Shown piece after piece: positions 10,893 to 37,492 of a stretch of 64,000 nucleotides of DNA (positions are counted from its first letter, which is position 1; each line of letters opens with the position of its first letter). The translations under genes were made by a program, and so were the position numbers. The stretch lies in NCBI RefSeq assembly GCF_000218625.1, contig NC_015672.1:1240001-1304000 (forward strand), read 5' to 3'. Under the pieces are notes generated by a model that worked only from the letters and a program-made list of their open reading frames with translations, ran no database searches and was not told where the DNA came from. The DNA is from Flexistipes sinusarabici DSM 4947. GTDB taxonomy: Bacteria > Chrysiogenota > Deferribacteres > Deferribacterales > Flexistipitaceae.

Positions 10893-10940
10893 AACCACCT
10901 CAATTCCCTCAAATACCTCTAACTACCTCCTTTAAATGCA
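10893..10940 (+). repeat. Dispersed C/T-rich degenerate repeat, family A copy 2
   Basis: Units such as ACCTCAA, ATACCTCTAA and CTACCTCC end in TTTAAATGCA. The 12 bases CCTTTAAATGCA are identical (in reverse complement) to the start of the 34430-34490 copy. The repeat lies in the 283-bp gap before the RHH gene. Confidence 0.6.
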
Positions 10941-19710: not shown

Positions 19711-19742
19711 CTAAGTGTTAAGTGTTAAGTACTAAGTTTTAA
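19711..19742 (-). repeat. Degenerate heptamer array, family B copy 2 (inverted)
   Basis: On the minus strand the array reads as AACTTAG, TACTTAA, CACTTAA, CACTTAG. It is the inverted partner of the 19881-19930 array. Confidence 0.65.
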
Positions 19743-19880: not shown

Positions 19881-19930
19881 TACTTAAAACTTAGCTCTTA
19901 GCACTTAATGCTTAATACTAAACACTCAAA
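19881..19930 (+). repeat. Degenerate heptamer array, family B copy 3
   Basis: Seven ACTTARC-like units (ACTTAAA, ACTTAGC, TCTTAGC, ACTTAAT, GCTTAAT, ACTAAAC, ACTCAAA). The unique left flank (AAATAACTAAA...GAAGGTACT) is shared with the 34546 copy, so the element is more than a simple tandem repeat. Confidence 0.7.
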
Positions 19931-34425: not shown

Positions 34426-34429
34426 AGGG

Positions 34430-34490
34430 TGCATTTAAAGGCAGTTAGAGGTGGTTAGGGGTAGTTGAAGGTATTAGAGGTATTAGGGGT
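34430..34490 (-). repeat. Dispersed C/T-rich degenerate repeat, family A copy 3 (inverted)
   Basis: Starts TGCATTTAAAGG, then GTTAGAGG, GGTTAGGGG, GTATTAGAGG-type units with irregular 7-8 base spacing. It is the reverse complement of the 10893-10940 pattern. Confidence 0.65.
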
Positions 34491-34545
34491 TTTATAAGTA
34501 TTAAAGATTAAATATTGTGTCCAGTTAAATAACCAAAATGGAAGA

Positions 34546-34595
34546 AGGTACTCAAAACTTAGCACTTAACACTTAGCACTTAACACTTAACACTA
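34546..34595 (+). repeat. Degenerate heptamer array, family B copy 4
   Basis: The most regular copy: ACTCAAA, ACTTAGC, ACTTAAC, ACTTAGC, ACTTAAC, ACTTAAC, ACTATCT. Its left flank (AAATAACCAAA...GAAGGTACT) matches copy 3. It ends 19 bases before the -35 of the site-2 protease gene. Confidence 0.75.
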
Positions 34596-34611
34596 TCTCA
34601 CTTATTTAAAT

Positions 34612-34643
34612 AGATTGACAGTGTAGGGACAATCTGATAATAA
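34612..34643 (+). promoter_or_regulatory. Consensus promoter placing the transcript start at the site-2 protease ATG
   Basis: TTGACA (34615-34620), 17 bases, TAATAA (34638-34643). The predicted transcription start is 34649-34650, the same as the ATG at 34650, so the mRNA should be leaderless. Inverted hexamers AGATTG (34612-34617) and CAATCT (34630-34635) flank the spacer and could be an operator. Confidence 0.75.
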
Positions 34644-34649
34644 CCATTC

Positions 34650-35285
34650 ATGGAATTTGACATTAATTCTTTTTTGAGAGAACTTTCTATAGCAGCTGTT
34701 CCTTTTCTCATGGCAATTACCGTGCATGAAGCCTCCCACGGCTACGCAGCGTATATGCTTGGAGATGATACGGCCAAGAGAGCAGGGCGTTTAACTTTAA
34801 ATCCCCTTAAGCATCTCGATCCGCTTGGACTGCTTGTTCTTTTTCTTACCAGGTTATTCGGATGGGCAAAACCGGTACCTGTAAATTTTACCAATCTAAA
34901 CAATAAAAAATACGGTCCTGCTATTGTTGCAGGTGCAGGCCCAACTGCCAATTTTATCACCGCAATATTGTCTTCGGGTTTATATAACATAATCATTAAT
35001 CTGAATGTGAGTCAGTCATTGCATTCGACGCTGATTGTACCCTTGGCACTGATGGCTCTTTTCTCCATCCAAATCAACATAGCTTTAGGTATTTTTAATC
35101 TTATTCCGATTCTTCCTCTGGACGGAGGAAGAATACTTCAATCTTTTCTGCCGTTAAATGCAGCCTATAAATTTTCACAAACAGAGCAGTACGGCTTTGT
35201 TATTATAATAATTTTGCTGCTTACAAACGTTATAGACAGAGTTGTATTCCCTATTATCAATGTTCTTGTAAATTTATTAACTTAA
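34650..35285 (+). CDS. Site-2 protease family (M50) membrane metalloprotease
   Basis: The 211-residue multi-span protein has the zinc motif H26-EASH30 in membrane segment 1 and the third-ligand motif NLIPILPLDGG (150-160), plus GPTANF in the middle. Such minimal S2P proteins cleave membrane proteins inside the bilayer; the substrate is unknown. There is no ribosome site upstream of ATG 34650, and the promoter suggests a leaderless transcript. It is the first gene of a dense operon through trpS, scpA/B, queD/E and the TPR protein. Confidence 0.92.
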   Translation: MEFDINSFLRELSIAAVPFLMAITVHEASHGYAAYMLGDDTAKRAGRLTLNPLKHLDPLGLLVLFLTRLFGWAKPVPVNFTNLNNKKYGPAIVAGAGPTANFITAILSSGLYNIIINLNVSQSLHSTLIVPLALMALFSIQINIALGIFNLIPILPLDGGRILQSFLPLNAAYKFSQTEQYGFVIIIILLLTNVIDRVVFPIINVLVNLLT

Positions 35286-35299
35286 GGAGTCTGCATCCA

Positions 35300-36280
35300 A
35301 TGACAAAAGTATTAAGCGGCATGCGCCCGACCGGCAAGCTACACATAGGACATTATTTCGGAGCACTTCAAAACTGGGTAAGCTTACAGGATAAATATGA
35401 ATGTTTTTATTTTATAGCTGACTGGCACGCACTCACAACCGGATATGAAACACCTCCAGATTTTCATACACTGAGAAGGGAAATGCTTCTGGACTGGCTG
35501 ACAGCAGGCCTTGATCCCAAAAAAAGTACTCTGTTTATTCAGTCAAAAAATTCTGCTCATGCTGAGCTTTACCTGCTGCTTAACATGATAACACCAATTG
35601 GATGGCTGGAGAGATGCCCCACTTACAAAGAAATGAAAGAGGAGCTGAACGATAAGGATCTTTCCAATATTGGTTTTTTAAGCTATCCTGTCCTGCAGAC
35701 TGCGGATATTATAATATACGATGCAAAATACGTCCCTGTGGGAAAGGACCAGGTTCCCCATCTTGAAATAAGCCGTGAAATTGTCAGGCGTTTTAATTAT
35801 CTTTATAACGCAGATGTTTTTGTTGAACCTGAGGCGTTGCTTACAAAGACACCCAAGTTACTGGGTACTGACGGAAGAAAAATGAGTAAATCATACGATA
35901 ATGCCATACTGCTTTCTGAAGATTTGAAATCGGTGGAGAAAAAAATAAAACAGATGAAAACTGACACAAACAGAAAAAGAAAATCCGATCCGGGGAATCC
36001 TTTTATCTGTCCTGTGTTTGGATATCATGAGGTCTTTTCCACAAAAGAAGAGCAGGAATGGGTAATAAACGGTTGCAAAAATGCCGAGATAGGGTGTATA
36101 GACTGCAAAAAAGTTCTCATTAAACATTTGTTTGAATTTTTGGAGCCGCTCCAGGAAAAGCGCAATAAGCTTGACAAAGAAATTGACAATATATACGAAT
36201 ATTTATCCGAATCCCAGGAATATGCCGAAAAAATTGCATCAATAAAATTAGAGGAAGCAAAAAAAGCAATGAACCTATGA
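35300..36280 (+). CDS. trpS: Tryptophanyl-tRNA synthetase
   Basis: The class I synthetase of 326 residues has MRPTGKLHIGHYFGAL (HIGH motif) and DGRKMSKSYDNAI (KMSKS), as well as DQVPHLEISREIVRRFN. An AAGGAG site precedes the ATG. The stop overlaps scpA as ATGA. Confidence 0.96.
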   Translation: MTKVLSGMRPTGKLHIGHYFGALQNWVSLQDKYECFYFIADWHALTTGYETPPDFHTLRREMLLDWLTAGLDPKKSTLFIQSKNSAHAELYLLLNMITPIGWLERCPTYKEMKEELNDKDLSNIGFLSYPVLQTADIIIYDAKYVPVGKDQVPHLEISREIVRRFNYLYNADVFVEPEALLTKTPKLLGTDGRKMSKSYDNAILLSEDLKSVEKKIKQMKTDTNRKRKSDPGNPFICPVFGYHEVFSTKEEQEWVINGCKNAEIGCIDCKKVLIKHLFEFLEPLQEKRNKLDKEIDNIYEYLSESQEYAEKIASIKLEEAKKAMNL

Positions 36281-36984
36281 AAGATCTTCTCGATGTAAAA
36301 ACAGCAAATTTTGAAGGTCCGTTGGATTTACTCATCCATTTAATCTACAAAAACGAAATGAATATATATGACATCTCAATCTCAACAATTGCCGATCAGT
36401 TTGTTGATACAGTGAGGCAGATGGAAAGACTGGATATGGAGGTTGCTGCAGAATTTATAAACATGGCATCGTATCTGACATATCTGAAATCAAAAATGCT
36501 TTTACCCAAGACTTCCACTTTTGAAGAGGATATCGACCCGGAAGAAGAAAAATATCATTTTACCCAGAGACTTATAGAATATTCTTTTTATAGGGATATT
36601 TCAGAGACACTCAGGCAGAAAGAATTTTTCAGCAAAAGATATCTGACACGCAGAGATACACTATATCTTCCCAAAGAGCATTCTTATCAAGAAGATCCTT
36701 TGAGTCTGGCCAAAGAATTTTTCAGACTTATAGAAAAGGAAAAAGATGATAATGTTGTTATCGAACATGACAATGTTGATATAGATGATTTGATTGAACA
36801 GATGAAAGATTTTGTGTTAAACAGAGACGAAATTTTCTGGTCTGAAATCCTAAAGGTCTGCAGGAGCAAAAGGGAAGTTGTTGTTGCGTTGCTTGCAATA
36901 TTGGAACTGGTAAGGATAAAAGTAATAACTGCTCTTCAAACTGAAAACTTTGGCGAAATACTGGTGAAAAAGTATGCAGAATAA
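36277..36984 (+). CDS. scpA: Segregation and condensation protein A
   Basis: ScpA is the kleisin that bridges SMC heads with ScpB in chromosome condensation. The 235-residue protein starts with the family motif FEGPLDLLIHLIYKNEMNIYDISI and has ASYLTYLKSKMLLP and a C-terminal winged helix (VVVALLAILELVRIKVITALQ...FGEI). It overlaps trpS by four and scpB by 11 bases. Confidence 0.95.
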   Translation: MKDLLDVKTANFEGPLDLLIHLIYKNEMNIYDISISTIADQFVDTVRQMERLDMEVAAEFINMASYLTYLKSKMLLPKTSTFEEDIDPEEEKYHFTQRLIEYSFYRDISETLRQKEFFSKRYLTRRDTLYLPKEHSYQEDPLSLAKEFFRLIEKEKDDNVVIEHDNVDIDDLIEQMKDFVLNRDEIFWSEILKVCRSKREVVVALLAILELVRIKVITALQTENFGEILVKKYAE

Positions 36985-37492
36985 AGAAAAACAGATGTTT
37001 TTTGCCTCGCTTTTCCTTTCAGGTAAACCTATCAACCTGAAATTTTTCAGAGAAATGTTTGACCCGATTAATATGGAAAACCGACTTGATGAGTTTGCAC
37101 ATGAATTCAATAGTATGCAGACAGGTTTGTTTATCAGGAAAGTTGCAGAAGGTTATCAAATGGTTACAGACACAGCAATATTCGATGAGTTGAGCACATT
37201 TTTTGGTGAAAGGGCAGAAAACCTATCAAAAGCTGCTATGGAAACCGTGGCAGTAGTAGCATATAAACAGCCGGTCACAAAAATTGAAATTGAGGAATTA
37301 AGAGGGGTAAATTCAGCAGGTGTAATCAGACAGCTTCTTGATAAAAATCTCATACGGGTAATGGGGAGAAAAGACGTACCGGGCAGGCCGATGCTGTACT
37401 GTACCACCAAATACTTTTTAGAGTATTTTAACTTGAAAACTTTGTCCGAATTACCTACTTTCAGAGAATGGCAGGAGTTAAAACAGAGCTGA
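36974..37492 (+). CDS. scpB: Segregation and condensation protein B
   Basis: ScpB, partner of ScpA. The 172-residue protein has two winged helices, with the family block ETVAVVAYKQPVTKIEIEELRGVNS and a LLDKNLIRVMGRKDVPGRPMLY segment. Overlaps scpA and the next gene (25 bases). Confidence 0.95.
   Translation: MQNKEKQMFFASLFLSGKPINLKFFREMFDPINMENRLDEFAHEFNSMQTGLFIRKVAEGYQMVTDTAIFDELSTFFGERAENLSKAAMETVAVVAYKQPVTKIEIEELRGVNSAGVIRQLLDKNLIRVMGRKDVPGRPMLYCTTKYFLEYFNLKTLSELPTFREWQELKQS

Follow-up and report, generated by a model that had tools for sequence, protein, structure and literature searches.

A predicted leaderless promoter of a site-2 protease operon conserved across five families of the Deferribacterales

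The site-2 protease gene of Flexistipes sinusarabici, a heat-loving Red Sea bacterium (Deferribacterota), is preceded by a predicted sigma-70-like promoter that abuts its ATG codon and is retained at nearly the same distance from that codon in five families of the order Deferribacterales. We analysed a 64,000-nt window of the 2,526,590-bp genome (G000; NC_015672.1, positions 1,240,001 to 1,304,000 of the forward strand), to which unprefixed coordinates refer, and compared it with related genomes. The reading that we favour, at a probability of about 0.85, is that the site is the leaderless promoter of a protease-trpS-scpA operon, which would be old in the Deferribacterales and held by selection. 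Leaderless genes in general are already known; what is new here is a predicted leaderless gene with deep conservation.

An earlier note on this DNA had placed TTGACA-17-TAATAA directly before the ATG at 34650, and each element is found there on the plus strand: the −35 element TTGACA at 34615–34620, the −10 element TAATAA at 34638–34643 after a spacer of 17 nt, and, following a gap of 6 nt, the ATG at 34650–34652. TAATAA agrees with TATAAT at only three of six positions and lacks the final T of a standard −10, and for this reason the site is absent from the output of a standard promoter scan. The trinucleotide TGA at 34635–34637 provides the TGN that precedes the −10 and, together with the TTGACA −35 and the 17-nt spacing, gives the layout of a sigma-70 extended −10 promoter; the earlier note did not mention this TG. 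The weight of the promoter prediction lies on the extended −10 and on conservation, the bare consensus match not being strong. An alternative register, GATAAT (34636–34641) at 15-nt spacing, was rejected, as the comparative alignment favours TG-N-TA at 17 nt. The pattern TTGAC-N15-TGNTA followed by ATG after 9–12 nt has a single occurrence in the window, which is on the plus strand, and a slightly wider form occurs four times in the whole genome versus none in the reversed control.

The ATG is predicted to be both the start codon and the start of transcription, its A being the seventh base after the −10. The residues that follow the N-terminal methionine are conserved among orthologs, and an in-frame TAA (34641–34643) rules out a start codon further upstream. 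No Shine-Dalgarno (SD) match of at least 4 nt precedes the gene in the window genome, in agreement with the earlier note, whose further statement that nearly every other gene here has a clear SD proved broadly right: 47 of 54 window genes have a match of at least 4 nt, but in 15 of those 47 it is only 4 nt long. RNA structure at the predicted 5′ end is unremarkable (z 0.17).

The gene (34650–35285, plus strand) encodes a short site-2 protease of 211 aa with a match to Peptidase_M50 (Pfam PF02163, E 9.9e-13), in which HEASH at residue 26 and NLIPILPLDG at residue 150 correspond to the HExxH and NxxPxxxxDG motifs of M50 proteins. It is followed on the same strand by an SD-led trpS (35300–36280; Pfam PF00579) and by scpA (36277–36984; Pfam PF02616), which overlaps the trpS end. 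In all 30 loci examined trpS lies downstream of the protease, with an SD at its start in 29 of the 30 and the leaderless motif in none. The upstream neighbour, by comparison, is variable, being a DUF445 gene in the window and other genes elsewhere, several of them on the opposite strand, so the promoter appears to travel with the protease gene. With its short chain and its HExxH and LDG motifs, this M50 protein resembles those site-2 proteases that lack PDZ or CBS domains (groups II/IV), which the sections consulted of PMC10202637 describe as not extensively characterised; the likeness is drawn without assignment to a subgroup, and promoters are not discussed in those sections. In the G039 ortholog (L019) an in-frame TAG lies within the HExxH motif, indicating either a pseudogene or an assembly error.

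A protease match was found in 52 of 59 genomes searched (42 of 45 within the order), and upstream DNA was compared for the 42 in-order orthologs and four from outside the order. The motif TTGACN-N14-TGN-TANNNN, with a spacer of exactly 17 nt and 5–8 nt before the ATG, is present in every one of the 24 orthologs from five families (f1, 3; f2, 4; f5, 12; f7, 3; f8, 2), whereas shuffled upstream DNA gives a chance expectation of about 0.06 for these 24 and about 0.09 for all 46. The start codon is ATG in each of the 24, and the fully invariant columns are the first five bases of the −35 (TTGAC), the TG of the extended −10 and the TA that opens the −10; at the last −10 position 17 orthologs, among them that of the window genome and most of those from f5, have A, and the other 7 have T. 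In a sliding-distance control with 30 long-flank loci, 23 had the motif 4–9 nt before the start, and every 6-nt bin between 10 and 153 nt was empty in all 30. What has been observed is the site, how it is conserved and how constant its distance from the ATG is; a promoter locked to the start codon with identical spacing argues for the leaderless reading that the earlier note had proposed. The marks of a leaderless gene, namely a −10 placed for a start within a few nucleotides of the ATG, no SD and an ATG codon, are seen together in the window genome. An exception among the orthologs is a single f5 genus, where five genomes (G013, G026, G029, G035, G037) have the conserved TG embedded in an SD-like AGGTGAT, 8–11 nt before the ATG; because the two overlap, an SD-led reading is open for those five. 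Four f5 orthologs (L021, L022, L024, L025) have two tandem ATG codons at the start, directly after the −10.

The motif is absent from all 18 orthologs of the three remaining in-order families (f3, 2; f4, 2; f6, 14) and from the four of f10 and f11, outside the order. These 18 genes lie close behind another gene and mostly bear an SD. In the f4 and f6 loci listed, the upstream gene, whose product we take to resemble IspD, ends 3–19 nt before the aligned protease start, and an SD precedes the protease in many f6 loci. The protein tree calls for three state changes and would accommodate a single gain with later losses in f3 and f6; the hypothesis of one origin is not rejected (p-AU 0.19). Under a loose rule, no valid leaderless geometry was found for the same gene among 26 loci outside the order, a match at L051 being judged spurious as it sits at an internal GTG. 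Spacing that is fixed in five families, with the promoter missing from the same gene in three others, suggests that the arrangement is selected.

Comparison within the genus points the same way. The proteases of G000 and its congener G002 are 78% identical in protein sequence, and fourfold sites are identical at only 26 of 75 (35%), by which measure silent positions are close to saturated; from ATAGATTG through the ATG, by contrast, the two genomes have only two base differences, which suggests that the spacer is also constrained in this genus. The DNA further upstream is unalignable between them. This non-conserved intergenic stretch (34430–34600, plus strand) carries degenerate tandem repeats of a 9-mer (TTAGAGGTA/AACTACCTC) and a 7-mer (ACTTAAC/ACTTAGC) at 34445–34503 and 34557–34594. 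The same repeat types occur elsewhere in the window, at 672–700, 10893–10929, 19712–19742 and 19889–19907, and the 7-mer array near the protease promoter is not the same length in G000 as in G001.

Transcription might instead begin further upstream, from a promoter within 34426–34610 or by read-through from the DUF445 gene, and yield a leader without an SD. A simple scan does show a weak site, TTAACA-18-TAGATT, at 34587–34616, and 100 of 436 genes (23%) in the first 464-kb sample have no SD of at least 4 nt by the gene caller used. The divergence of the intergenic stretch from G002, whereas the promoter at the ATG is conserved, the turnover of upstream genes among relatives and the absence of the motif at other distances in the 30 loci nevertheless make such a start improbable. 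We consider it very unlikely that the block is a regulator binding site or an alternative sigma element rather than a sigma-70 promoter, in which case transcription may start elsewhere. The final −10 base, A in most of the 24 orthologs, and a spacer conserved beyond the hexamers between G000 and G002 could be read in that way, but TTGAC-17-TGNTA corresponds to the textbook form of an extended −10 promoter, and across families spacer positions sp2–sp11 carry at most 0.55 bits while the TG is invariant, a pattern that a promoter fits better than an operator does.

An operator could also exist in addition to the leaderless promoter. An imperfect inverted repeat, AGATTGAC-N8-GACAATCT (34612–34635, 7 of 8 pairs), spans the −35 and part of the spacer, and a genus-specific repressor bound there would block the −35. 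The repeat is identical in G000, G001 and G002 and occurs intact once per genome, in intergenic DNA; that it is unchanged in a congener with 35% fourfold identity makes an operator possible. As a palindrome, however, it is no better than chance, since shuffling the 60-nt stretch 1000 times gave an equal or better one in 322 cases, and no copy was seen in the other families. A search for a regulon by genome matches found none, the nine further near matches in G000 all lying inside ORFs of at least 80 aa. The regulation that the earlier note read from this repeat is accordingly kept as a tentative and rather doubtful suggestion, the repeat being present and conserved in the genus and its palindromy not exceeding that of shuffled sequence.

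Returning to the leaderless promoter, we infer from sequence how it would be used, where precisely the mRNA would begin and that translation would be leaderless. The block 34615–34643 would act as a housekeeping-type (sigma-70-like) promoter, in which the strong −35 and the extended −10 would offset the poor −10 hexamer for RNA polymerase with the housekeeping sigma factor. Transcription is predicted to start at the protease ATG or 1–3 nt before it, giving a leader of 0–3 nt, with A34650 as the most likely first base, as no purine comes earlier in the usual window, the three preceding bases being pyrimidines. A start at or near the ATG would leave the protease-trpS-scpA mRNA without a usable 5′ leader, and the 5′-terminal AUG of the protease would be recognised directly by a ribosome loaded with initiator tRNA, with the downstream trpS on the same mRNA being initiated via its SD.

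Leaderless genes of bacteria are marked by a TA-like signal immediately before the start codon in the account of Zheng et al. 2011 (PMC3160421), as far as the sections consulted go, and the protease gene resembles them in having a −10 a few nucleotides before the ATG, no SD and a TG preceding the −10, the last being described there in several low-GC genomes. It differs in that Deferribacteres are not among the phyla with leaderless genes in those sections, the main text of that paper containing no word that begins with Deferribacter, and in that the promoter of a single gene is followed here over five families, in all of which the −35 is intact and the spacing fixed. Deferribacteres are listed by anti-SD type in the portion consulted of a 2024 study (PMC10783764), and a literature search, with tables and supplements outside its scope, found no report of leaderless genes in Deferribacter, Deferribacteres or Deferribacterota. 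Mycobacteria, in the sources sampled, likewise combine leaderless and SD-led genes in one genome, but their leaderless transcripts are common and mapped by RNA-seq, whereas here a small class is predicted. As far as the literature search shows, the present case extends the list of phyla in which leaderless genes are predicted with good support. Most work counts such genes and rarely follows them; here one promoter is traceable over five families with its spacing unchanged, and the three related families that lack it, mostly with an SD, supply paired genes for testing the purpose of leaderless initiation.

On balance we lean towards the view that the Deferribacterales keep a small, selectively maintained leaderless set, made up of the protease operon, the gene of an XRE-cupin regulator and a few more genes, in which family-level switches between leaderless and SD-led starts would form a natural experiment on why such genes exist. 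In 864 kb of the window genome (34%; the window plus 40 stretches), promoter-like sites 5–9 nt before the chosen start were found at 8 of 163 SD-less genes, against 1.1 expected from mononucleotide shuffles, and at 1 of 169 weak-SD and 1 of 435 SD genes. Corresponding counts for SD-less genes in 400-kb samples of relatives were 5 of 79 in G008 (0.5 expected), 2 of 81 in G019 (0.15) and 2 of 72 in G014 (0.6). These numbers point to a small leaderless-type class in the window genome. The eight genes include the protease, one insertion-sequence transposase and the gene at 37468, presumably rluB; the site before rluB (TTGAAA-17-TACTTT-6-ATG, 37430–37468) lies within the end of scpB and may be due to chance. 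Counted over the whole genome irrespective of genes, the bare leaderless pattern shows only weak enrichment: 39 sites compared with 22 for the reversed control, a single insertion sequence accounting for 11 of the 39. An IS1634-family transposase gene (L089:12401-14233) has the stretch TTGACA-16-TATAAT-6-ATG, which occurs 11 times in the genome (here and at 10 further sites); the element thus seems to bring a leaderless-type promoter of its own.

Two further genes of this type were followed among relatives. The gene at L098:17166 (minus strand; orthologs L252–L254), whose product we take to resemble MnhE, has TTGACA-18-TATAAC-7-ATG, a geometry seen by eye in 3 of 14 orthologs (a fifteenth weak match, L266, being outside this count) and kept in its own genus only. 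The XRE-cupin regulator (L093:13876-14418; orthologs L222–L240) has distant similarity to PuuR, below the model cut-off. TTGAC-16/17-TA with 5–8 nt to the ATG precedes 10 of 10 of its f1, f2, f7 and f8 orthologs with a script-found start, and L227 is an eleventh case by eye; in f5 the geometry is absent, and 7 of 7 script-found orthologs start with TTG behind an SD, as does L233 by eye. The lambda cI mRNA made from PRM is the textbook leaderless mRNA of a regulator; both genes encode regulators, but gene and organism are different and no homology is claimed. A palindrome like TGTTCANTATAATGAACA lies upstream of the SD-led f5 orthologs, and is perhaps the XRE-cupin protein's own operator, which would overlap the −10 in the leaderless forms.
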